DNA from: a virus
Reading direction: 5' to 3' (one strand)
IMG/VR virus record: IMGVR_UViG_3300032073_000163
Coordinates: 1-29,211 of that record
DNA: 29,211 nucleotides
Part shown: in pieces, positions 10,511 to 29,211 of the stretch
How the letters are laid out: each line of letters begins with the position of its first letter
How positions within the stretch are numbered: the stretch's first letter is position 1
The notes under the pieces: generated by a model
Told to the model about the DNA's origin: nothing
The model's input: only the letters and a program-made list of their open reading frames with translations
Database searches by the model: none
Position numbers and translations under genes: made by a program

Positions 10511-11047
10511 ATGTGTACTCCCGAAGCCTATATCGCGTTGACGATTGCCTCTGCGGCAACGTCGTATGCTTCAGCCAGTGCATCCGCTAAGGGGCAGCAA
10601 AAGCAGTATGAGTACAACGCCGAGCTGGCTGAACAGAGTTCCAGAAATCAATACAACCAGATTCGCCAGCGTCAGGCCCAAGAGAACGAAAAGTCTTCTC
10701 AGGAAATCTCTGAGGTAAGCCGGAGAGCCTTGAAGGCCCGGTCTACTGCAATGGTGCAGGCGGCTGAGAAGGGCGTGGGGGGTCGGAACATTCAAGACCT
10801 CCTTCAAGACTTCGAGCGTCAAGAGTCCGAGTACCGCAACATTTCACTTAGAAACCGTGCGTTCCGTGAACTGGCGTATGAAGATCAACTCGAATCTATC
10901 CGGCTTGGCACGCAGTCACGAATCATCAACGCATTGCCAACCCAAGCGAAGCCATCATTCTTGGGAACTGCTCTGAAAATCGGTGGTCAGATTGCCGGTG
11001 GATTGGGCGACTTCAATGATCCAGATCCAGAAAGAGAGATTGTCTAA
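10511..11047 (+). CDS. Internal virion protein, T7 gp14-like
   Basis: The 178-aa product begins with a hydrophobic Ala/Ser-rich helix (YIALTIASAATSYASASASA), followed by a long Gln/Glu/Arg-rich helix (about residues 28-130) and a Gly-rich end (LKIGGQIAGGLGDF). This matches T7 gp14 (196 aa), which is ejected first and forms a pore in the outer membrane. The TAA overlaps the next ATG by one base. Confidence 0.87.
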   Translation: MCTPEAYIALTIASAATSYASASASAKGQQKQYEYNAELAEQSSRNQYNQIRQRQAQENEKSSQEISEVSRRALKARSTAMVQAAEKGVGGRNIQDLLQDFERQESEYRNISLRNRAFRELAYEDQLESIRLGTQSRIINALPTQAKPSFLGTALKIGGQIAGGLGDFNDPDPEREIV

Positions 11048-13257
11048 TGGGACAATTCCAGAATGACCTACAGCTCTACAAGAGTCTGGAACCAGCCGCA
11101 CGACCTATAGATACCTACGCACCTATTCGTCTGCCCTCCGCTGGTCCGCAACTTAATGAACTGGCTGAGGGACTTTCTGTATTCAATCGTGGTCTCAGAA
11201 AATTCGCAGTGGAGGAAAGAGCTGAATTCCAAGAAGAAGAACGTAAGGCTGGCGAGACGTTTGCTAACCAACTCACGGAAGCAGACCGAATCGAAATTGC
11301 ACGACAAGGAATCCGCGATGCTGAGAAAGCGGGACTCATCCCAAAGGGAGCAAGCCCCACGCGATTGATTGCAATTCAAGAGGCAATTGGTAGGGAGCTG
11401 GCACGCGATTACGAAAAGAGAGCATTTGAACAAGTTGCTCGACTGAGTGATCCCACCAATGTCGAGGATATTGATGAAGCATTCCGAGAAGAGTGGAGTA
11501 AGACCAACCTTGGAAACTCGTTCTACATCACCGCAGCAGCGGTAGAAGAGCAAACAAAAATTGATAATCGCCTCGTCAGGCAAGTCCATGCTCAACGAGC
11601 CGCGAACACTCTTGATCTCAACAAAGAGCAACACACTAATGAGCTGGAATACCAACTGGATGTCGCCGGTACGAGAGGCGAGGTGTATTCCACTGAAAAG
11701 ATTGAAGCATGGATGAACGAAGGGTTCAAACAGTTCGGCTCCTCATTCTACGAAGAAGGATGGCGAGCCATTCAACAAGAAGCACTCAGTCTGGCCCAAG
11801 ACGGAAAAGCCGATGAGGCGATTGCATTGGTGAACAGCTTTAAAAATGCGAATCCAACTAAGCAAAAGAATGCAGGAATGGATCGAAGGTTCTCTAATGA
11901 AATCGATTTGTTTGAGGATGACATTCGGAAGGCGGAAGACCGGTTTGAGGCACAAGAACTTGCCGAACAAGAACAACAGCGAAGTGCCTCTCGAAACGCG
12001 GACATAGATGCGGCCCGAAAAGCTGCAAAAATTATCAGCGGAGTAGCCTTTAATTTGAAAGATGATCGCCCATCATTTACTGAATTCAGGGAAGCATCAA
12101 TCACCGCTCTGACTGAAGCGGGGGTGGCTAACGAAGTTATTGGTGCGGCTTTGGGAGATATCACAAACGCCTTCAATACTCTTGAAAACCCTCAAGAGGC
12201 AGCAGAACGACGGTTACTTCTTGTCCAAGGTAATCCATCAGTTGCAGAACTTGAGGCTCGTGGTGAAGAACTGGGCGCACCTGCGACTGAGATCGAAGCC
12301 GCTAGAGAGGTTATAGATAGTAAAGAACGAGTCATGCGTGCCGAGGCGTTTCGACAAGTAAAGGGTGTTGAGGACCGCTGGGAAGATGCACTGTCCCTAT
12401 CAGTGGCTGACCTCGACGATACGCAATTCCGTCAATCCGATGAAATCAAAACCGAACAACGTAATCGGTTCAAAGAGGAACTTGAGGCAACCATTAAGAG
12501 AGTGAGAAAAAACAACCCCGGACTTCGATCCGATGAGATTGCAGCGTTGGTTGAAGATGAAATGGATCAGTGGGTCACAAGTAACTTGGATTCAGTGTTG
12601 AACCCAGACAATGTCAACTCTTCGATCACCAAAGCTAGGCAAGTAACCTTCGTCATGCCTTCAGTCTCGCAGCTTCCTGCGGCTCCTCCCAGTGATGAGT
12701 TCACGGAGGAGGGAGCATTGTTTGGTGCAATCGGGGGGCGATTGGCAAACAGAGTAGGTGATTACTTTGAGGAGACAACTGCCCAAGGTCGAGAACGGTA
12801 CGCACGCGAGAATGTTCAACCCGTCATTCAAGAAGAGTTGAAAGCTGCTGACTTCCAGATTAGGAAAATAACTCGCGGATTTACTAGGCCCGCAACCTCA
12901 CTGACACCTGCCACTCCAGTTCCCGGTCGAGAATTAGATCAAAACGGAATCGACGCTCGTCGCTACCGCTCTGCTGTTCTGTTTACTGGAGTCTCCATTG
13001 AGGATCTTGAACGTGGCACGTTTAAGAACGGGGTGACGATTGTTGACGATCTTAGAGAACCACGGATTACGCCGTACTTCCCAAACAAAAAGGCATTGTC
13101 AGATGCTCTGGATGAGTACGACAACGCCGACCCTGAAGCCCAAAGTGGAACACTGATTGGGCGACTGATTACTGAACTAGGGGGCAACAAAACAGGAACC
13201 GCAGATCAGTTTGCCACGATGCAAGGTCTTCTTCTTCAACGTAGAGGTATGAACTAA
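11047..13257 (+). CDS. Internal core protein, T7 gp15-like
   Basis: The 736-aa product is near T7 gp15 in length (747 aa). It is Glu/Arg/Ala-rich and overwhelmingly helical, with charged stretches such as RAEFQEEERKAGETF and RIEIARQGIRDAEKAG. In T7, gp15 and gp16 form the internal core, are ejected into the periplasm and build the DNA translocation channel. The position between gp14-like and gp16-like genes supports the call more strongly than any single motif. No enzymatic motif is seen. Confidence 0.87.
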   Translation: MGQFQNDLQLYKSLEPAARPIDTYAPIRLPSAGPQLNELAEGLSVFNRGLRKFAVEERAEFQEEERKAGETFANQLTEADRIEIARQGIRDAEKAGLIPKGASPTRLIAIQEAIGRELARDYEKRAFEQVARLSDPTNVEDIDEAFREEWSKTNLGNSFYITAAAVEEQTKIDNRLVRQVHAQRAANTLDLNKEQHTNELEYQLDVAGTRGEVYSTEKIEAWMNEGFKQFGSSFYEEGWRAIQQEALSLAQDGKADEAIALVNSFKNANPTKQKNAGMDRRFSNEIDLFEDDIRKAEDRFEAQELAEQEQQRSASRNADIDAARKAAKIISGVAFNLKDDRPSFTEFREASITALTEAGVANEVIGAALGDITNAFNTLENPQEAAERRLLLVQGNPSVAELEARGEELGAPATEIEAAREVIDSKERVMRAEAFRQVKGVEDRWEDALSLSVADLDDTQFRQSDEIKTEQRNRFKEELEATIKRVRKNNPGLRSDEIAALVEDEMDQWVTSNLDSVLNPDNVNSSITKARQVTFVMPSVSQLPAAPPSDEFTEEGALFGAIGGRLANRVGDYFEETTAQGRERYARENVQPVIQEELKAADFQIRKITRGFTRPATSLTPATPVPGRELDQNGIDARRYRSAVLFTGVSIEDLERGTFKNGVTIVDDLREPRITPYFPNKKALSDALDEYDNADPEAQSGTLIGRLITELGGNKTGTADQFATMQGLLLQRRGMN

Positions 13258-20633: not shown

Positions 20634-20891
20634 ATGGCTGAATACAAAGGCAAGAAAGTACCTTTGAACAAGGTCATGCGGATTCGCAAAGACGAGCCGG
20701 GGCATGGCAGAAAGAAGTCCAAGGTCTTCGTCAAGGATGGTGGTAAAGTCAAGAAGGTGATGTTCGGAGATCCCAACATGAAGATCCGAAAGAATGAGCC
20801 GGGGCGTAGAGCCAATTTCCGCGCTCGTCACAACTGCGACAACCCCGGCCCCAAGACCAAGCCTCGGTACTGGGCATGTAAGACTTGGTGA
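20634..20891 (+). CDS. Conserved marine-phage basic protein (RARHNCDNPGP motif)
   Basis: The 85-aa product contains KVKKVMFGDPNMKIRKNEPG, RRANFRARHNCDNPGPKTKP and ends RYWACKTW. This C-terminal pattern is strongly conserved in short proteins of many marine myo- and podoviruses, from memory; no function is established. Two Cys and a His could coordinate a metal. There is a partial internal repeat: MRIRKDEPGHGRK near residues 15-27 echoes MKIRKNEPGRRAN near residues 49-61. The TGA overlaps the TerL ATG by one base. Confidence 0.75.
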   Translation: MAEYKGKKVPLNKVMRIRKDEPGHGRKKSKVFVKDGGKVKKVMFGDPNMKIRKNEPGRRANFRARHNCDNPGPKTKPRYWACKTW

Positions 20892-22549
20892 TGGACGAGC
20901 GAATCCACGACTTTCGGAACTTCTTGTATCTGGCGTGGGAGCAGCTCCGTCTGCCGGACCCTACGCCTGTCCAATATGACATCGCGGACTACCTCCAGAA
21001 TGGACCCAAGCGGTCCTGCATCATGGCGTTCCGTGGGGTCGGCAAGTCTTGGATCACCTCCGCCTTTGTCTGCCACCAGCTCTTGCTGGACCCCCAGAGG
21101 AACATCTTGGTGGTCTCAGCGTCCAAGGCCCGAGCCGATGACTTCTCCACGTTTACCCTGAGGTTGATCTCAGAGATGCCCATGCTTCAGCATCTCAGAC
21201 CCAGAGAAAACCAGAGGAACTCCAAGATCGCCTTTGACGTTGGCCCCGCGACCGCCAGTCATGCTCCCTCCGTGACATCCCGAGGTATCACGGGACAGAT
21301 CACAGGGGCAAGAGCGGACCTGATCGTGGCTGACGATGTGGAGTCCCTGAACAACTCTGCGACCCAGACCATGAGGGACAAACTGTCCGAGTCCATCAAG
21401 GAGTTCGACGCGGTTCTCAAACCAGATGGTCGCGTGGTCTACCTCGGAACACCTCAGTCCGAACAATCCATCTACAACGTGCTGCCCCAGCGTGGATACG
21501 AGACCCGTATATGGCCCGCTAGAATCCCTCCTGAGAAGCAGCAGAAAAAGATGGAGGATACCTTGGCTCCGATGGTCAAGCGTCTCTCAGGGGATTCTAG
21601 GGACGATTACGGCAAACCTACAGATCCCCAGCGATTCGACGAGCATGACCTGCTGGAGCGTGAGGCTAGTTACGGTCGCTCTGGGTTTGCCCTCCAGTTC
21701 ATGCTGGATACGAGCCTGAGTGACCAGAGCCGATATCCGCTCAAACTCAGTGACCTTGTGGTCATGCACCTGAACCCTGAGACAGCTCCGGAGAAGGCCA
21801 TCTGGGCCGCTTCCCCCGATCTGATCTGGAAGGATCTCCCATGCGTGGGGTTCGCCGGAGACCGGTACTACCGACCAATGCAGGTACAGGGCGACTGGAA
21901 GCCCTACAGCGGCTCCGTGATGGCAATCGACCCCTCGGGTCGGGGTGCAGACGAAACCGCTTACGCGGTCGCCAAGACCCACCACGGGCAAATCCTGATT
22001 ACAGCCGCAGGTGGACTTCCAGGTGGATACGAAGAGGGAACCCTGCAACGGCTGGCGGACATCGCCAAGGAACAGAAGGTCAACAAGATCATCATCGAAT
22101 CCAACTTCGGTGACGGAATGTTCACCAAGCTGTTGACCCCATACGTCACCAAGACCTACCCCGTGACTCTGGAAGAGGTCCGACACTCCACCCAGAAGGA
22201 ACGCCGGATCATCGACACCCTCGAACCCGTGATGAACCAGCACAGGCTCATCGTGGACTACGGGGTGCTGATGGATGACTACGAGTCAACCAAGGGCAAA
22301 CCCCAAGAGATGGCCCTGAAGTACACCTTGGCCTACCAGATGACCAGAGTCACCAAGGACAGGGGAGCCTTAAAGCATGATGACCGCCTCGATGTCCTCG
22401 CAATGGCTGTCCAATATTGGGTAGACCATATGGCCCAAGACCGAGACAAAGCCATCTCCAGAGCCAAAGACCAAGCCTTCAGGGATGAATTGGAGAAGTT
22501 CACCACCCAAGTCATCGGGGGTAAACCAAAGTCCAACTCTTGGTTCTAA
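20891..22549 (+). CDS. Large terminase subunit, T7 gp19-like
   Basis: The 552-aa product is the packaging motor and nuclease. The ATPase domain shows the Walker A FRGVGKSW (residues 48-54 region), LVVSASKARADDFS, the Walker B LIVADDVES (about residues 144-152) and YLGTPQSEQS as the coupling motif. The nuclease domain shows AIDPSGRGADETAYA (Asp347), IIIESNFGDGMF, and HDDRLDVLAMAV (Asp498, Asp501). T7 gp19 is 586 aa. I start at the ATG that overlaps the previous stop (TGATG); in-frame TTG and GTG codons lie immediately upstream. The region is distinctly CCC/CTG-rich compared with the structural genes. Confidence 0.96.
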   Translation: MDERIHDFRNFLYLAWEQLRLPDPTPVQYDIADYLQNGPKRSCIMAFRGVGKSWITSAFVCHQLLLDPQRNILVVSASKARADDFSTFTLRLISEMPMLQHLRPRENQRNSKIAFDVGPATASHAPSVTSRGITGQITGARADLIVADDVESLNNSATQTMRDKLSESIKEFDAVLKPDGRVVYLGTPQSEQSIYNVLPQRGYETRIWPARIPPEKQQKKMEDTLAPMVKRLSGDSRDDYGKPTDPQRFDEHDLLEREASYGRSGFALQFMLDTSLSDQSRYPLKLSDLVVMHLNPETAPEKAIWAASPDLIWKDLPCVGFAGDRYYRPMQVQGDWKPYSGSVMAIDPSGRGADETAYAVAKTHHGQILITAAGGLPGGYEEGTLQRLADIAKEQKVNKIIIESNFGDGMFTKLLTPYVTKTYPVTLEEVRHSTQKERRIIDTLEPVMNQHRLIVDYGVLMDDYESTKGKPQEMALKYTLAYQMTRVTKDRGALKHDDRLDVLAMAVQYWVDHMAQDRDKAISRAKDQAFRDELEKFTTQVIGGKPKSNSWF

Positions 22550-23057: not shown

Positions 23058-23327
23058 CGCAAAAATTTGAAACGGGTTATACGCGTATCGTAGCCGCGAT
23101 GACCCCCCGTGCCTGGTGCGTGTGCGAGCGTCGCGGGGGCGTGATTCGGGCGGGTGACGGTCCACAATCGGCGAACCTGCCGCCACAGGTAGCGGTTCCG
23201 AAAGATTCAGAGTCTGTCGGGGGTCAATGATGGACGGGGACGGGGGGACATCCGGACCGGCGGGGGTCGTTCGGTGTCTCTCTTTTATTACCCGTCTTTT
23301 GGTGTTGAACGAATCCGGAAAGAACAT
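23058..23327. other. Gene-free GC-rich gap at the start of the early cassette
   Basis: From about 23058 the base composition changes abruptly to GC-rich with many CGG, CCG and GGGG words. I see no convincing gene: short frames here lack ribosome-binding sites and protein-like composition. No tRNA or clear terminator was found. In T7 order, the region between TerL and RNA polymerase contains the concatemer junction and terminal repeat, so the physical genome end may lie here or near the tandem repeats at 24048-24155. Confidence 0.4.
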
Positions 23328-23356
23328 TGGACAAACCCGGACGGGGAGCCGATACT
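23328..23356 (+). promoter_or_regulatory. Sigma70-like promoter P1 (early cassette)
   Basis: TGGACA (23328-23333), a 17-base spacer and GATACT (23351-23356) form a plausible host-type promoter. The same -35, spacing and -10 recur at 24170-24198 before the DUF932 gene, which makes a chance match unlikely. Predicted start is near 23363. Confidence 0.7.
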
Positions 23357-23404
23357 GTCGGGGTAGGGTTCATTCGGAACCCGTTCTAAGTAAGGATTGA
23401 CACA
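23349..23404 (+). repeat. Duplicated 56-bp leader, copy 1, with operator-like dyad
   Basis: This block, from the -10 region to the base before the ATG, matches 24191-24246 with 5 differences in 56. It contains the dyad GGGTTC-ATTCG-GAACCC (23366-23382), just downstream of the predicted start, and the ribosome-binding sequence TAAGGA. The dyad could be a repressor operator or an mRNA hairpin. Confidence 0.85.
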
Positions 23405-23653
23405 ATGACAAACGAATACGCTATCCGGACCTATGCCCGCCTAATTGAGATGATGTCCAACGGTGACGCTAAATGGGTCGACAAATCAGAATTTGTTCCG
23501 CCGTCTTTCTTTTGGGATCAAGAGGAAAAAGGCCAATTGGACCGCGAGACGCTTGTAGAGGAACTCGGAACCATCTCGGAGATGATTGTGGAGTTCGCAT
23601 GCGACCTAGCCGAAGAGGCCGTAGACCATTTGTCAAAAGAGATGAACGCATGA
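23405..23653 (+). CDS. Small acidic early-cassette protein, unknown
   Basis: The 82-aa product (start MTNEYAIRTYARLIEMMSNG) is acidic and mostly helical, with the late segment ETLVEELGTISEMIVEFACD and LAEEAVDHLSKEMN. No family is recognised. It is the first gene after promoter P1, with AAGGA about 8 bases before the ATG, and its TGA overlaps the next ATG (ATGA), so the two are translationally coupled. Small acidic early proteins of T7-like phages often block host functions (T7 Ocr is the classic case); that is only an analogy from position and charge. Confidence 0.75.
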   Translation: MTNEYAIRTYARLIEMMSNGDAKWVDKSEFVPPSFFWDQEEKGQLDRETLVEELGTISEMIVEFACDLAEEAVDHLSKEMNA

Positions 23654-23979
23654 ACCACGCAAAAGCATTCACACTCAAGTCCGGAACCAACAAAGGCAAC
23701 CGCCGGATATGGATCGAGGGAAGCCGTCTAGCGTCTAACGGGTTCCGCCGGGGTACTCGCCTAGCGCGATACATGAACGACGGCGGGACCATGACCCTAG
23801 TACCCGTCAAAAGAGATATATGTCTTCCCAAGGGTGTAAAGGTTCACACCATCGCCGGGACCGCCGATCGTCCGATTCTGGACCTATGCGGTAAATGGGT
23901 GACGGAGTTCATTGGGGATTCCGAACGGTTCGCCGTGGAGATTCGCCCCGATTCCAGCATGATGATATATCCCGATTGA
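23650..23979 (+). CDS. Protein with two SymE/AbrB-like halves
   Basis: The 109-aa product appears to contain two similar beta units. The first is GNRRIWIEGSRLASNGFRRG followed by TRLARYMNDGGTMTLVP; the second is RPILDLCGKWVTEFIGDSER followed by FAVEIRPDSSMMIYP. Each reads strand, G-K/S-W/R-L, turn, strand, then a short strand ending I/L-x-P, as in SymE/SpoVT-AbrB-type swapped-hairpin proteins. A small family of phage and plasmid proteins with this double layout and a conserved RPI(I/L)D linker exists as I recall; its function is not assigned. DNA or RNA binding is inferred from the fold. The ATG overlaps the preceding stop, and a terminator follows. Confidence 0.7.
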   Translation: MNHAKAFTLKSGTNKGNRRIWIEGSRLASNGFRRGTRLARYMNDGGTMTLVPVKRDICLPKGVKVHTIAGTADRPILDLCGKWVTEFIGDSERFAVEIRPDSSMMIYPD

Positions 23980-24007
23980 CCCGCGATACATCCCGAAACC
24001 CTCATGG

Positions 24008-24034
24008 CCCCGGCGTAGTCCGGGGTCTTTTTTT
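24008..24034 (+). terminator. Intrinsic terminator after the first early unit
   Basis: CCCCGG and CCGGGG form the stem around a CGTAGT loop, extended by a G-T and a G-C pair, followed by TCTTTTTTT. It closes the two-gene unit started by P1. Confidence 0.9.
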
Positions 24035-24047
24035 GCCTATGCCCTGA

Positions 24048-24155
24048 GGGTTAGCCGTAGAGGGTCCACGGTCTAAGGTTAGCCGCTACGGGTCCGGGGT
24101 TCTCTTAGGGTTAGCCGCTACGGGTTCGGGGTTCTCTTAGGGTTAGCCGCCCCGA
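24048..24155. repeat. Tandem repeat, 32-bp unit (about 3.3 copies)
   Basis: Copies begin at 24048 (degenerate, 28 bp), 24076, 24108 and 24140 (partial). The unit contains GGGTTAGCCGCTACGGGTTC followed by GGGGTTCTCTTA; the second and third copies differ at two positions. It fills the non-coding gap between a terminator and promoter P2. The spacing of three helical turns suggests a site for a protein that binds repeatedly, such as an iteron, or a packaging-end array like the short repeats at the T7 genome ends. Confidence 0.85.
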
Positions 24156-24169
24156 TTCTAGAATTGGAC

Positions 24170-24198
24170 TGGACATATCCGAACCAATCTCCGATACT
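24170..24198 (+). promoter_or_regulatory. Sigma70-like promoter P2 (DUF932 gene)
   Basis: TGGACA (24170-24175), 17 bases, then GATACT (24193-24198): identical hexamers and spacing to P1, although the spacer sequences are different. Conservation of the hexamers but not the spacer favours real promoter function. Confidence 0.72.
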
Positions 24199-24246
24199 GT
24201 CGGGGTCGGGTTCACTCGGAACCCGTTCTATTTAAGGATTGACATA
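24191..24246 (+). repeat. Duplicated 56-bp leader, copy 2, with operator-like dyad
   Basis: Matches copy 1 at 23349-23404 with 5 differences. It keeps the dyad arms GGGTTC and GAACCC (24208-24224) even though the loop differs (ACTCG versus ATTCG), and keeps TAAGGA before the ATG. Confidence 0.85.
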
Positions 24247-25257
24247 ATGACTAACGCTACAACTAGCCGCCTCGATTCCAACATTCAGCTGTTCCCGTCC
24301 CCGGTTACGCCCCGCGAAGCCTTAAGCCTAGCGGACCTGGAATGGGGGATCGATTCGGTTCCCGTATGGTCCGGAACCCCTAACGTATTCGGACACCCCG
24401 ATGTTGAGAATGTCCGCCGAATCCCCGACCAATACGAATTACGCCGGGACGATACCGGCGGGCGCTTGGGGACGGTCTCGGATAAATACCATCCAATCGA
24501 GAATGGAACCCTTGCCGACATCATCGGCGAATCATTCGGGGCGGAACCGTCCATAGTCGCGGCGGCATGCTGGAACGGTGGACGGCGGGTAATGCTTCAA
24601 GCCAAGACCGGCGCGCATGATATCGCCGGGGTAGATGCGAATGAATTTTACGCTACGTTCTTAGCATCCCATGACGGGGGCGGGGCGGTTCGGTTCATTC
24701 CGTCCACCGTCAGAATGGAATGCATGAACCAGGTGAACGGGTTCATTCGGGCGGCGGATGCTATGGGCGGCGTGGTCCGAATGTCTCATGTAGATATCGG
24801 CGACCGTTCCACAATTGCCGATCTATTCGCCGGGGCTATTTCAAACGTGGACCGAGCTAACGCCGCCACCGTGGAACGTCTTGAAGACTACGCGAATCGC
24901 CCCGTTATGTCGGATACGGTTCGGGACTACATCGACCGTATAGCGTGGGAAATTGCCACGCCCCAAACGCGTCAGCTCTTAGGCAATACCGCCGGAACCG
25001 TAGCCGACAATCTAAAAGACCCCGCGACACAAAAGGCCGTTAGGCGGTTCGCCGGGGTTCGGGATTCCATGATGGAGCTGTACGCCTCATGCGATGCGGG
25101 GAACATGGCCCCGGCGGTCCGAGGTACTCGGTTCCACATGATGCAAGCCGCGACCGAATACCTCACACACAACGCGAACCGCTCCGATTCGTCTATTGTG
25201 GACGGTGAGACCGCGAAGCAAACGCGACTCGCGGTAGAACTCGCGGGAACCATCTAA
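24247..25257 (+). CDS. DUF932 family phage/plasmid protein
   Basis: The 336-aa product matches the DUF932 pattern: RRDDTGGRLGTVSDKYHPIE near residue 75, CWNGGRRVMLQAKTGAHDIA, then FYATFLASHDGGGAVRFIPS and VRMECMNQVNGFIRAADA, the conserved core in which a strand with SHDG is followed by R(M/V)xCMN. Such proteins are widespread in phages, plasmids and prophages; their function is not established. It is expressed from its own promoter P2 and ends before its own terminator. Codon use (CCG, CGG, CTA, GCC) differs clearly from the virion genes, suggesting separate acquisition or a different selection regime. Confidence 0.8.
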   Translation: MTNATTSRLDSNIQLFPSPVTPREALSLADLEWGIDSVPVWSGTPNVFGHPDVENVRRIPDQYELRRDDTGGRLGTVSDKYHPIENGTLADIIGESFGAEPSIVAAACWNGGRRVMLQAKTGAHDIAGVDANEFYATFLASHDGGGAVRFIPSTVRMECMNQVNGFIRAADAMGGVVRMSHVDIGDRSTIADLFAGAISNVDRANAATVERLEDYANRPVMSDTVRDYIDRIAWEIATPQTRQLLGNTAGTVADNLKDPATQKAVRRFAGVRDSMMELYASCDAGNMAPAVRGTRFHMMQAATEYLTHNANRSDSSIVDGETAKQTRLAVELAGTI

Positions 25258-25278
25258 AAGAATCCCCAAAAATACCCG

Positions 25279-25314
25279 CCCCGGTAGGTCTAACGGTCTA
25301 CCGGGGTCTTTTTT
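25279..25314 (+). terminator. Intrinsic terminator after DUF932 gene
   Basis: CCCCGGTAG pairs with CTACCGGGG across a short inner hairpin (GTC-TAAC-GGT), followed by TCTTTTTT. It is similar in style and base to the other cassette terminators. Confidence 0.9.
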
Positions 25315-25318
25315 CGTT

Positions 25319-25333
25319 CGGGGATCGTCCCCG
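25319..25333. promoter_or_regulatory. Palindrome upstream of the GP88-like gene
   Basis: CGGGGA-TCG-TCCCCG is a perfect 6-bp dyad followed, after GATACC, by eight T. It may be a second weak terminator or attenuator, or an operator. I find no clear -35/-10 pair for the downstream gene, so read-through from P2 is possible. Confidence 0.45.
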
Positions 25334-25366
25334 GATACCTTTTTTTTCAGTTTGAGGAGTGACATC

Positions 25367-26119
25367 ATGCAAACACAAGAACTGACGATAGGCGGCAAAC
25401 GTCCCGCCCTAGGTTCATTTGGCAAGGCTACCCGTGGATCGGTCGCCTTGAATTACGGTAGGTCCGGCGGGGCGAACTGCTCCAGCTCATGCCCCTATCA
25501 TCCGGAATCGACTAGCCCCCATGCGGAACCTAGCCGCGCCCGATGCTATGCCGCCGCCGGTGAAGCTAGGCCCGACCGTAAGCCATTAGCGGCGAAGCTA
25601 GACCGCCATGAATCCGCCGGTGGTGACGCGGTCACGTTCGCCGCCGATGCCGAGCTACGCGGCTACCGCTACCGTCTACCGTGGTTCCGTCTATCGGCAT
25701 TCGGTTCGGTTCCGCCGGAACCGCCCAAGGGGTTCCGCGACATGATCGGGAACCTATGCGATGCGGGGACCCCGATACACTTCCCGATCGAGTGTGACCA
25801 AAAGGCAGAACGCTACCGGCGGGAACTGGACGGTCTACCCGTAGCGGTTCGGGTATCGGTCGCATCGTTTGGCGAGTTCCTGGAACATTCGGGTCCGTGT
25901 TCTTTTGTCGCGGGGTCGATGGAATCTAGGCCACGGGAACGGGTAGCCGATGCTCGCAAGGCCGCCGCCGCTAGGCGTAGGGAATCGGGTAGGGGATGCG
26001 CGGTATGTCCCGCCGCCGCCGGTGGTCTTCTTAGGGTCAAGAATGACGCTTCAAAATGCGGAGCATGCACCCTATGTGCAAACCCCGATGTCGATATCAT
26101 CTATCCGGTTCACAGGTGA
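25367..26119 (+). CDS. Cys-rich GP88-like phage protein
   Basis: The 250-aa product carries NYGRSGGANCSSSCPYHPES at residues 29-48 and RCYAAAGE at 59-66 (Cys38, Cys42, Cys60), a central segment WFRLSAFGSVPPEPPKGFRD that resembles the R-x-S-xxGDF strand of the GP88 family, and a second cluster GCAVCPAAAGG...SKCGACTLC (Cys211, 214, 231, 234, 237) ending DVDIIYPVH. The paired Cys clusters and final aliphatic-x-H fit the actinophage gene-product-88/DUF7227-like proteins. I infer metal or Fe-S binding; the activity is unknown. GAGGAG lies 8 bases before the ATG at 25367; a TTG 15 bases upstream is less likely. Confidence 0.7.
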   Translation: MQTQELTIGGKRPALGSFGKATRGSVALNYGRSGGANCSSSCPYHPESTSPHAEPSRARCYAAAGEARPDRKPLAAKLDRHESAGGDAVTFAADAELRGYRYRLPWFRLSAFGSVPPEPPKGFRDMIGNLCDAGTPIHFPIECDQKAERYRRELDGLPVAVRVSVASFGEFLEHSGPCSFVAGSMESRPRERVADARKAAAARRRESGRGCAVCPAAAGGLLRVKNDASKCGACTLCANPDVDIIYPVHR

Positions 26120-26123
26120 AGCT

Positions 26124-26198
26124 ATGCGATACGTTCACGCCTTTTTTATGCTAGTCGGTCTCTCGATTCTATGGTGCATCATGACCCCGGACGATTGA
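26124..26198 (+). CDS. 24-aa predicted single-span membrane peptide
   Basis: The frame MRYVHAFFMLVGLSILWCIM ends TPDD and stops at TGA. About 17 consecutive residues are hydrophobic, enough for one membrane span, with a basic N-terminus and an acidic C-terminus. AGGTGA lies 5-6 bases before the ATG, and an intrinsic terminator starts 26 bases after the stop, so the frame occupies the last position of the transcript with the GP88-like gene. No family is recognised. It may be a small inhibitor of a host membrane protein or a toxin-like peptide. Confidence 0.5.
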   Translation: MRYVHAFFMLVGLSILWCIMTPDD

Positions 26199-26223
26199 CC
26201 CCGGAACCATCCCGAACCCCTAA

Positions 26224-26250
26224 CCCCCGCCCCGGCGGGGGTCTTTTTTT
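26224..26250 (+). terminator. Intrinsic terminator ending the early cassette
   Basis: CCCCCGC, loop CCCG, GCGGGGG, then TCTTTTTTT. It closes the GP88-like/micropeptide unit and marks the end of the GC-rich cassette. Confidence 0.92.
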
Positions 26251-26325
26251 GCCCCTATTCGCCCCGCACCAGCTCCCAAAATACCTGGCCCCCACCCGCC
26301 GGTCTCGGTCTAATCCCTCGGACCT

Positions 26326-26354
26326 GTTGTGTAATCCCTCGGACTTGGTATAAT
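26326..26354 (+). promoter_or_regulatory. Candidate promoter with consensus -10 upstream of integrase
   Basis: TATAAT at 26349-26354 has GTTGTG/TTGTGT 16-17 bases upstream. Repeat copy 2 fills the spacer and copy 3 overlaps the -10. The -35 is weak. Transcription would run into the terminator at 26373 within about 45 bases unless it is anti-terminated. Confidence 0.5.
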
Positions 26355-26372
26355 CCCTCTGTCAATCCTCCG

Positions 26373-26405
26373 CCCCCAGCGTGCTTCGGCATCTGGGGGT
26401 TTTTT
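26373..26405 (+). terminator. Intrinsic terminator / attenuator before integrase
   Basis: CCCCCAG pairs with CTGGGGG, a single C bulges, GTGC pairs with GCAT, and the loop is TTCG. Six T follow. It would stop transcripts from the early cassette or from the TATAAT promoter just before the integrase operon. Confidence 0.9.
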
Positions 26406-26406
26406 A

Positions 26407-26435
26407 TTGACGTAATCCCTCTGACTTATTACCTT
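26407..26435 (+). promoter_or_regulatory. Candidate promoter for the integrase-RNA polymerase operon
   Basis: TTGACG (26407-26412), 17 bases, TACCTT (26430-26435). The -35 fits sigma70 well and the -10 moderately. Repeat copy 4 sits exactly between them, adjoining the -35, as copy 2 does in the upstream candidate. It is the closest promoter to the integrase ATG at 26456. Confidence 0.5.
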
Positions 26436-26455: not shown

Positions 26456-27265
26456 ATGCCCCAAGAAGAAGTAACCCTCGGATACCTCAGCGACTTTGTT
26501 TACCGGACAGAGTGGGCGCACACCAAAGGAGAAGTCACGGCTCTTCGCAACAGTGAAGAGGTTGTGTCATACTTCGATGGAGATACCATCGTGTCCGACA
26601 TCAGACCCATCCACATCAGCGAGTTCGTGTCCACCCTCAGAGACTCAGGGAACAGCAACGGCACAATCAATCGTAAGCTCGCGGCTCTCTCGAAGATGCT
26701 GACGGTTGCCTTGCGTAACGAGTGGATTGACACCAAGCCTCACATCCCGAGACAGAAGGAAGCGTCTCACCGTATCCGTTGGATTACTCCTGATGAGGAG
26801 TTGGTGATGACTCAGCATTCTGACCCAAGGTTCGCCAAGTTGTGGACATTGTTGATCGATACTGGACTTCGGGTTGGAGAAGCATTGCGTCTTGAGCCGA
26901 TGGATATTGACATGGGGCAGAACCGTATTCATGTCTGGGAGAACAAGGCTGACAAGCCACGGTCTATCCCGATGACCAAGCGTGTGCGTTCGATTCTCGA
27001 TGGTCATGACTTCATGGACATCACACAGGATCAGGTAACATACCAATGGAACAAGATGAGGAAAGCGATGGGTCTCTTGGATGACTCACACTTTGTTCCT
27101 CACATCTGTCGCCACACCTTTGCATCGCGGTTGGTGCAGCGAGGTGTTGGTATCACTGTGGTGCAGCAGCTCTGCGGTCATAAGACCTTGGAGATTACGC
27201 TGCGTTATGCTCACCTTGCCCCATCAAATCTGGATGAGGCAATCAAGAAACTGGAGGAAGAATGA
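26456..27265 (+). CDS. int: Tyrosine recombinase / phage integrase
   Basis: The 269-aa product has an N-terminal SAM-like core-binding domain (about residues 5-100, with NSNGTINRKLAALSKMLTVA) and a C-terminal catalytic domain with all expected residues: Arg139 in DTGLRVGEALRL, the beta-hairpin lysine around NKADKPRSIPM (Lys164 or Lys167), His216-x-x-Arg219 in PHICRHTFASRL, His242 in CGHKTLEITLRYAHL and the nucleophile Tyr251. It would integrate and excise the genome at an att site. ATAGGAG lies before the ATG. The gene starts an operon of five genes that ends with the phage RNA polymerase, the place where integrases also lie in integrase-bearing marine T7-like phages. Its small size and lack of a clear extra arm-binding domain fit simple integrases. 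Confidence 0.94.
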   Translation: MPQEEVTLGYLSDFVYRTEWAHTKGEVTALRNSEEVVSYFDGDTIVSDIRPIHISEFVSTLRDSGNSNGTINRKLAALSKMLTVALRNEWIDTKPHIPRQKEASHRIRWITPDEELVMTQHSDPRFAKLWTLLIDTGLRVGEALRLEPMDIDMGQNRIHVWENKADKPRSIPMTKRVRSILDGHDFMDITQDQVTYQWNKMRKAMGLLDDSHFVPHICRHTFASRLVQRGVGITVVQQLCGHKTLEITLRYAHLAPSNLDEAIKKLEEE

Positions 27266-27645: not shown

Positions 27646-28415
27646 ATGACTGCGTTTCTCATTTGTCCTTGTGTGCTGGTATCGGGGGAATTGACCTTGG
27701 ACTGCGAAGAGTGGTCAGAAATCTCAACACCGTGGCTATGGTGGAGAGGGAAGCCTTCGCCATCTCAAACTTGGTGCAGAAGATGGAAGAAGGAGAGTTG
27801 GATTCGTGTCCTATCTACGCGGACTTGTTGCGGTTCCCTTGGCAGCGTTTTCGAGGCCGAGTGGATATCGTCTCTGGCGGATTCCCATGTACGCCGTTCT
27901 CGGTCGCTGGTAGTCGCAAAGCCACCGAAGACGAGCGACACCTCTGGCCCTACATACGCTCAGGGGTTGCTGTTCTCCAACCTAGAGTCTGCTTCTTCGA
28001 GAACGTCGATGGAATCGTCACCGCCCCCTCAGAGGGATATCACTCAGTTCTCCACCATGTCCTCAGCGACTTGGAAGAAATGGGTTTCAGCACAACGGCA
28101 GGACAGTTCTCAGCGCAGGAAGTCGGCGCACCCCAAATCAGAAAGAGATGGTTCATCCTCGCTGTGGCCCACCGCGACATCGAGGGATTGGAAAGATGGG
28201 ACGAACCCATCGATGAAAGCTCCGACGAATGGCCTGTTGGGCCGGGCTGTCCCCAGAGACCCGACGAGCCGCCCCGGACAATTGAATCCGACTTGGGTGG
28301 ACGGGTTGATGGGATTCCCAACAGGATGGACAGACTTAGAGCATTGGGGAACGCGGTAGTACCCGCAGTCGCTGCAAAAGCATTTAGTACCCTTTGGTGG
28401 AGGCTACACAAATGA
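27642..28415 (+). CDS. DNA (cytosine-5-)-methyltransferase
   Basis: The 257-aa product carries the C5-methyltransferase motifs in order: motif I LSLCAGIGGIDLGL (residues 8-21), motif IV SGGFPCTPFS with catalytic Cys83, motif VI FFENVDG (Glu120-Asn-Val), motif VIII QIRKRWFILA (165-174) and motif X RLRALGNAVVPAVAAKAF (from 231). The region between VIII and X, which holds the target-recognition part, is only about 60 residues, so the enzyme is small. Its likely task is methylating phage DNA against host restriction. No matching endonuclease gene is nearby. GGAGGAG precedes the ATG at 27642. The last third also reads well in a second frame (see findings). Confidence 0.93.
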   Translation: MNDCVSHLSLCAGIGGIDLGLRRVVRNLNTVAMVEREAFAISNLVQKMEEGELDSCPIYADLLRFPWQRFRGRVDIVSGGFPCTPFSVAGSRKATEDERHLWPYIRSGVAVLQPRVCFFENVDGIVTAPSEGYHSVLHHVLSDLEEMGFSTTAGQFSAQEVGAPQIRKRWFILAVAHRDIEGLERWDEPIDESSDEWPVGPGCPQRPDEPPRTIESDLGGRVDGIPNRMDRLRALGNAVVPAVAAKAFSTLWWRLHK

Positions 28416-28585
28416 AGTGTTATCTATGCGATACTGAACTTATTTGGGGCGGCGATCAGGATTGTGATGATGACTCGATGAATACCGACTTTCCTGTGGT
28501 TACAAACTTTTCCTGCCCGAACTGCGGAGCTGTTGTTGTTCTTTATCACCCGAAGGATGGCCCAAAGAGAGAGGGCGACGAATGA
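28412..28585 (+). CDS. Small zinc-ribbon protein
   Basis: The 57-aa product MKCYLCDTELIWGGDQDCDD has a CxxC pair at residues 3-6 and a second, SCPNCGAVVVLY, near residue 35, giving a classic two-knuckle zinc ribbon separated by an acidic stretch. Similar short proteins (KCxxCxxxLIWGGDxDC..) are common in phages; the function is unknown. It overlaps both the methyltransferase stop and the RNA polymerase start by 4 bases, and GGTGGAGG lies upstream. Confidence 0.8.
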   Translation: MKCYLCDTELIWGGDQDCDDDSMNTDFPVVTNFSCPNCGAVVVLYHPKDGPKREGDE

Positions 28586-29211
28586 GCAAACAACTTGATG
28601 CTGAGAAGAAGATGCTTGAGGCTGGACGGGAACGCTACTGGCGTAACTACCGAAAGTCACAAGCCGCTGGTATGGAAGCCAACACGCCTGTAGGACGCAG
28701 GCTCCTCGCTGAGTCAGTCACAAAGCTGACCAGAGGCATTGAGGAATGGAAACGCCAAGCATCCAAAGCACCTGGAATAAGACACCGTGCGTTGGATTAC
28801 ATCGAGCAGATACAACCCAAGGTCATCGCTGCGATCACCGCACGTTCAGTCATTGATTCGATCAGTCACGGTAAGAAGCTGACGCGATCAGCCATGACTG
28901 TGGCTCGTCTTCTTCAGGACGAACTGTTGTTCACAACGCTTCGCAAAGAAGAGCCGGACTTCTGGCGGTTGACTCAGATGAATCGCCAACGTGCGATGAA
29001 GTCAGGACCGCAGTATCACTCGGACTTCATCAAACGTGCCGCCAAGCATTCGGACATCATGTTCCCCAAGTGGCCCCAGCGTGACTCCCTTGCTGTTGGT
29101 CTGGTCTGCGTGGAACTGATGCGTCAATACACCGGCATCATTGAGATTAACCAACGCCGTGGGTTTGACGGCAAGACCACCACGATTGTCCAAGCCACCG
29201 ATGAAATGTTG
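28582..29211 (+). CDS. T7-like single-subunit RNA polymerase, N-terminal part (partial)
   Basis: The frame from ATG 28582 stays open to the window end (210 residues). It begins MSKQLDAEKKMLEAGRERYW and continues with TPVGRRLLAESVTKLTRGIEEW, quoted in part as GRRLLAESVTKL, PGIRHRALDYIEQIQPKVIA and ITARSVIDSISHGKKLTRSA. This is the N-terminal domain of Autographiviridae RNA polymerases, which is involved in promoter opening and RNA handling. The catalytic part lies beyond the window. The ATGA overlap with the zinc-ribbon gene places it last in the visible integrase operon. It drives middle and late phage transcription. Confidence 0.9.
   Translation, partial: MSKQLDAEKKMLEAGRERYWRNYRKSQAAGMEANTPVGRRLLAESVTKLTRGIEEWKRQASKAPGIRHRALDYIEQIQPKVIAAITARSVIDSISHGKKLTRSAMTVARLLQDELLFTTLRKEEPDFWRLTQMNRQRAMKSGPQYHSDFIKRAAKHSDIMFPKWPQRDSLAVGLVCVELMRQYTGIIEINQRRGFDGKTTTIVQATDEML

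Follow-up and report, generated by a model that had tools for sequence, protein, structure and literature searches.

Two accessory gene units of a T7-like phage are headed by copies of one predicted host promoter and one leader, and the ribosome-binding motif common to both leaders has its antisense at the predicted 5′ end of a short transcript just upstream of the integrase gene. The window, that is, the whole stretch of DNA analysed here, is an entire IMG/VR virus record of 29,211 bases from a phage of the Autographiviridae type that carries an integrase. The best explanation of the whole, to which we give about an even chance, would be that early cassettes were duplicated, that each opens with a hairpin in its mRNA, and that both may be silenced by one antisense RNA. 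The predicted RNA complementary to the leader motif (26361–26405) had escaped the preliminary description of this DNA.

Twin promoter-leader modules in the accessory block

The T7-like gene set of the window comprises a polymerase fragment, an exonuclease, a head-tail adaptor, the capsid and tail proteins. The nearest named relatives of its large terminase (20885–22549), about 60% identical, belong to roseobacter and pelagibacter phages of Autographiviridae. The terminase is followed by an accessory block, a tyrosine integrase (26456–27265, plus strand; Pfam PF00589, PHROG 1) and, at the right end of the window, the N-terminus of a T7-like RNA polymerase (28582–29211). The twin repeats lie on the same strand between terminase and integrase, where such phages hold their early genes. 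The accessory block (23112–26290) has sharp borders at 23111 and about 26290 and is replaced in close relatives; its G+C content reaches 60%, above that of the remainder of the window. A cytosine methyltransferase-like gene (27646–28356) spans 237 aa in the window and about 290 aa in another sequence, L044; it is matched in two separate pieces in the relative L008, and may be degraded.

The two modules occupy nt 23328–23414 and 24170–24256 and are 83% identical over 87 nt at a distance of 842 nt. Each begins with TGGACA-N17-GATACT on the plus strand, the predicted host promoters P1 (23328–23356) and P2 (24170–24198). With spacers of 15 to 19 bases allowed, this pair of hexamers occurs exactly twice in the window, at the places given in the preliminary description, and in 0 of 100 shuffles. 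The hexamers are identical at 12/12 bases while the spacers differ at 9/17 (post-hoc p 0.002), as had been reported. A hairpin follows in each leader: GGGTTC-ATTCG-GAACCC in the first (23366–23382, plus strand), 9 nt past the −10 and where the mRNA is expected to begin, and CGGGTTC-ACTCG-GAACCCG in the second (24207–24225, plus strand). The ribosome-binding motif AAGGATTGAC then lies at 23392–23401 and 24234–24243, both on the plus strand, so that the dyad just past the predicted start and the common ribosome-binding site were described correctly for both leaders. The leader had been said to carry five differences. Five is the count ahead of the start codon, and a sixth stands just after it, giving 6 differences in the 58 nt that follow the −10 and run through coding base 10; the repeat thus extends into the first codons of both units. 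By the search that had been proposed, the only exact copies of GGGTTC-N5-GAACCC in the window are those of the two leaders, and sites with 2 mismatches are about as frequent as chance predicts. The extended dyad was searched for in viral contigs and not found.

As isolated sigma-70 matches, P1 and P2 each score 9/12. Four such matches occur in 7.2 kb where 5.2 are expected, and the score alone is unremarkable; 0.6% of random positions reach 9/12 at the same upstream distance. The promoters are credible because of their duplication and position rather than their score alone. The leader RNAs fold little better overall than their shuffles (z −1.0 and −1.5). The surroundings of the unit 1 terminator (24006–24033, plus strand) are 77% identical over about 62 nt to those of the terminator that ends the block (26223–26249, plus strand). 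Both ends of the cassette, and hence its whole frame, therefore seem to have been duplicated. The promoter and leader part of the interpretation, co-expressed early cassettes with a common leader, is likely. The earlier suggestion that the early units are co-regulated and transcribed by the host polymerase is backed by the gene order and by the mapped promoters P1 and P2 of phage LUZ100, which lie at the corresponding place.

The cassettes carry different genes. Unit 1 holds an 82-aa open reading frame (23405–23653, plus strand), for which family searches in Pfam and PHROG gave no match, and a 109-aa frame (23650–23979, plus strand) whose start overlaps the preceding stop in ATGA. The 109-aa protein had been labelled SymE/AbrB-like; family and profile searches lend this no support, and neither does the AlphaFold model of its last 108 residues, which is unusable at a pLDDT of 43. 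A comparison of the protein with designed toroid proteins in the PDB was dropped, as no stretch passes by itself. Unit 2 encodes a DUF932 protein of 336 aa (24247–25257, plus strand; Pfam PF06067, E 2.7e-18), with a terminator 3′ of the gene (25278–25313, plus strand); the nearest plasmid relatives of the protein are mostly on mycobacterial plasmids, at about 27% identity. The next open reading frame encodes a 250-aa Cys-rich protein (25367–26119, plus strand) that found no match in a family search. Its ribosome-binding region, GAGGAGTGACATC, is near but not identical to the leader motif. DNA searches and close protein searches recovered no relatives of the accessory proteins.

Some smaller features of the block are recorded here. 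About 3 copies of a 32-bp tandem repeat, GGTTAGCCGCTACGGGTCCGGGGTTCTCTTAG, fill 24049–24150 between the first terminator and P2. The final reading frame ahead of the block-end terminator (26124–26198) is a 24-aa peptide with a hydrophobic middle, conserved at 11840–11914 of L008 (MRYVHAFFMLVGLSILWCIMTPDD and MRYLYAFVMLVGLSAFWCILTPDD). Upstream of P1 a second hairpin is found in L008 (10335–10368, TTCCGGGAGATATTGAATCTCTCGGAA), with a weaker counterpart in the window at 23185–23225; it is perhaps tied to the genome end.

Leader layout in relatives and a predicted antisense RNA

Five close relatives, with terminases 95–98% identical, can be aligned with the window as far as base 23111. Homology resumes near the integrase, at about 26290 in L008 and at 26331 in L006. 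Past 23111, the alignment of L005 is limited to about 130 bases at the block-end terminator, and neither L003 nor L004 aligns; the available stretches of these three do not contain the integrase. In every relative with a readable block, the block differs from that of the window. The first accessory gene of L008, L004 and L006 is preceded by a promoter-like pair (7–8/12, weaker than in the window), a hairpin 6–9 nt downstream of the −10, and AAGGATTGA. The arms of the hairpin are GGGTTC/GAACCC in the window, GGCGA/TCGCC in L008 and L004, and CGCCA/TGGCG in L006. L008 and L006 each have a second hairpin with a copy of the motif and no recognisable promoter upstream, although the second L006 hairpin needs a G-U closing pair and does not count as a strict one. 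Of the 9 leaders with AGGATTGA, 6 have a strict hairpin; the figure is 1 in 32 for the remaining genes of the window and 6% for random stretches. Within the window and the close relatives, AGGATTGA is confined to accessory-gene leaders. The half of the motif that is not Shine-Dalgarno, TTGA, is retained in 9 leaders and in no other place.

A lack of conservation in related phages had been named as a refutation for the dyad and hexamers. The outcome is mixed: the letters of the dyad are not conserved, its exact form being absent from L004, L006 and L008, while the layout and the AAGGATTGA motif are kept; no operator sequence was seen to be kept together with a repressor across the relatives. 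The letters of the hairpin change and the hairpin stays, twice without a recognisable promoter, which favours an element of the mRNA over a repressor site in the DNA. Of the two forms of control offered in the preliminary description, one repressor or an mRNA structure, the latter fits better.

The motif appears once more, on the other strand. The antisense of AGGATTGA occurs in the window and close relatives only shortly before the integrase, where it forms the 5′ end of a predicted RNA of about 45 nt (26361–26405, plus strand). This candidate starts with GUCAAUCCUCC, antisense to the leader motif, and continues with a GC hairpin and a T-run; its −10, TATAAT, is at 26349–26354 on the plus strand. 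The arrangement recurs: past a conserved −10, as far downstream as a transcription start would be, comes (G/A)UCAAUCCUCC, and then a GC-rich stem and a T-run. The predicted promoter combines a conserved −10 with a poor −35, and the predicted terminator is strong and covarying. Across four sequences the 11 pairs of the stem are kept in 44/44 cells, with 3 pairs changed on both sides. G-U pairs in the stem identify the plus strand as the one present in the RNA, whose 5′ end is predicted to be unpaired.

The window contains a single candidate made up of a −10, a short transcript and a terminator, and it would pair with both leaders over 10 nt if transcription starts one base earlier, or over 9 nt from 26361. 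The corresponding lengths are 9 and 9 nt in L008 and 9 and 8 nt in L006. One change is matched on the two sides, motif GAC standing with RNA GUC in the window and motif GAU with RNA AUC in L008. Of random 11-mers from the window, 0.5% reach a complementarity of at least 9 nt with one or other of 34 ribosome-binding regions, and only two other sites in the window match both leaders at 9 nt or more. The contiguous complementarity to the target ribosome-binding regions is beyond chance, while the ranking by energy is not specific: the duplex energies do not place the leaders first, and GGAGGA-type sites (exonuclease, methyltransferase) and the integrase site are as good or better. Part of the match between RNA and leader is ordinary Shine-Dalgarno, and AAGGA..TTGA could also pair with the 3′ end of 16S. 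The short RNA is carried by only three or four related genomes, and its conservation is therefore not independent. The leaders are probably silenced by it, with the chances about evenly divided.

A pattern scan with liberal start sites also gave 10-nt chance matches at L025 and L053. A match at L047 was rejected as chance, having another sequence and lacking a T-run terminator. Rfam returned nothing at gathering score; a sub-threshold match to NsiR1 over the short RNA (22 bits versus 39) was taken to reflect a common terminator shape.

The short RNA and the integrase are both preceded by boxes. Two TAATCCCTCGGAC boxes lie exactly 21 bp apart at 26311–26344 on the plus strand. The −10 of the short RNA comes 17 nt after the start of the second box, and a further TAATCCCTCTGAC box lies upstream of the integrase at 26413–26425 on the plus strand. 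A pair of TAATCCCT boxes exactly 21 bp apart, with one more before the integrase, is present in 4/4 sequences (window 26311–26425, L008 12159–12286, L006 6182–6308, L044 261–388). The boxes are likely sites for an unnamed regulator or arm sites of the integrase. Their presence before both suggests that the short RNA and the integrase may be under common control. The TAATCCCTC repeats were also considered as promoters for the phage polymerase and rejected, since close matches occur only at 26311–26425 and none before late genes.

Proposed antisense silencing and its alternatives

In the mechanism that we propose, each cassette would have a host sigma-70 promoter, an mRNA opening with a small hairpin, and the extended motif AAGGATTGAC(A) ahead of one or two accessory genes, closed by a terminator. 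Duplication of the frame, with the promoter and leader in front and the terminator at the rear, would have given rise to the second cassette, around different genes. Host polymerase would transcribe both on entry. The hairpin would work in the mRNA, either by protecting the 5′ end or by holding the ribosome-binding site in a defined state, and not as a DNA operator. One ribosome-binding motif common to the leaders would make them addressable by one trans-acting RNA. With an unpaired 5′ end exactly antisense to AGGATTGACA, the RNA of about 45 nt would then, during activity of the integrase region, keep both units from being translated. A broader form of this proposal, which we consider unlikely, is that in a temperate T7-like group a protein repressor module has been replaced by the short RNA, which would be controlled together with the integrase through the TAATCCCT boxes and would silence interchangeable cassettes through the one motif that incoming cassettes keep.

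Alternatively, the modules may be ordinary twin early promoters with no trans regulator and with a leader that is stable and translated well, where the hairpin protects the 5′ end of the mRNA and AAGGATTGA is a strong ribosome-binding site favoured in early genes. The promoters have the same position as P1 and P2 of LUZ100, the hairpins begin 6–9 nt past the −10 and so near the expected 5′ end, and the pairing energies are nothing special, all of which suits this somewhat doubtful possibility; what it leaves unexplained is the TTGA half in 9 leaders and nowhere else, and the antisense with which a conserved short RNA begins. A dyad that is perfect, with arms of 6–7 bp and at an equal distance from both promoters, could instead be a DNA operator downstream of the −10, at which a phage repressor, perhaps the 109-aa protein, shuts both promoters, and a replaced block could bring its own repressor specificity. 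We hold this to be improbable, given that the window dyad gives way to GGCGA/TCGCC in L004 and L008 and to CGCCA/TGGCG in L006, that L008 and L006 have hairpin and motif together without a recognisable promoter, and that profile searches of the accessory block found no DNA-binding family.

The short transcript might also concern the integrase in cis. Here TCAATCCTCC within read-through transcripts would pair with the integrase ribosome-binding site, the terminator would attenuate the integrase, and the match to the leaders would be a by-product of a common consensus. Integrase ribosome-binding sites do resemble the motif (GGAGGATTCACATG in L008, with 8 nt complementary, and GGAGGCTTGACATG in L006), but the longest match to the integrase site is 5 nt in the window and L006, against 8–10 nt for the leaders, and we see little prospect for this reading. 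Least credible is that the similarity of the modules reflects only a recent segmental duplication or recombination with no regulatory meaning. It would agree with a repeat that reaches the coding start and with unit terminators that are alike too. It is hard to reconcile with changes that fall in spacer and loops and spare the hexamers and predicted stems, or with a hairpin-motif layout that recurs in unrelated accessory blocks.

Comparison with known control systems

The control of early genes in integrase-carrying T7-like phages is unsettled. A MarR protein has been proposed to hold back the early genes of LUZ100 (PMC10134795), and no repressor was found in T7-like cyanophages (PMC8776855). 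If antisense silencing as proposed here is true, a group without MarR that uses an antisense RNA would offer a concrete and easily tested RNA-based alternative. It would also account for one start sequence on accessory cassettes of unrelated content.

The Pseudomonas phage LUZ100 is T7-like and, as in the window, has its integrase just before the phage RNA polymerase. Its early region contains P1, P2 and P3, and in a further likeness to the window, a pair of conserved sigma-70 promoters for the host polymerase stands at the left end, before small early genes and terminators. Unlike the window, it has a MarR gene adjoining the integrase, and the available part of the report mentions no common leader with an antisense RNA (PMC10134795). 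A MarR-type match ahead of the integrase is found in L013, L014, L054, the pelagiphage HTVC119P and LUZ100; no such gene is among those scanned in the window, L008 and L006, where the TAATCCCT boxes take up its position. L054 is a distant prophage in a Hyphomicrobiales bin and the sole match of the terminase search in bacterial genomes, where the integrase search gave none.

The distant T7-like contigs L013, L009 and L014 have a repeated leader of their own, TTAACTATCCACTAAGGCAATTATTATG, which like that of the window heads accessory early genes in the region from terminase to integrase. The TATCCACTAAGGCAATTATTATG sites of this leader are at 10867–10956 and 11807 in L013, 10818 and 10896 in L014, and 8053 and 8825 in L009; the first gene after it in L013 encodes a GP88-family protein. 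It differs from the window leader in its unrelated sequence and in the presence of a MarR-like gene in L013 and L014. No antisense partner of the distant leader CACTAAGGC was found near the integrase.

A resemblance in layout is offered by the SAS/ESAS of cluster K mycobacteriophages. There, many translation starts carry a short conserved sequence, which is often directly preceded by an inverted repeat spelled differently from subcluster to subcluster, and the authors left open whether the partner is an RNA or a protein (PMC3203893). A start-site motif with a variable upstream inverted repeat is likewise what the window leaders show. The cluster K elements differ in having another sequence, imperfect repeats of 17 bp and another type of phage, and the window differs from them in having a candidate RNA partner in the same genome. 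By reading, the SAS consensus GGGATAGGAGCCC (at most 2 mismatches) is absent from either leader, where the motif is AAGGATTGA.

Phage antisense RNAs that block translation are known from c4 of P1/P7 and sar of P22 (reviewed in PMC12197685). Like the predicted short RNA, they are small and show complementarity to the region around the translation start of a phage mRNA, and they are tied to the lysogeny decision (PMC12197685). The RNA of the window differs from c4 and sar in being predicted only, in the common motif at its 5′ end by which it would address several units that do not adjoin one another, and in lying beside the integrase. The system proposed here would thus work like c4 of P1 and is laid out like the SAS of cluster K, and by sequence it is a member of neither.
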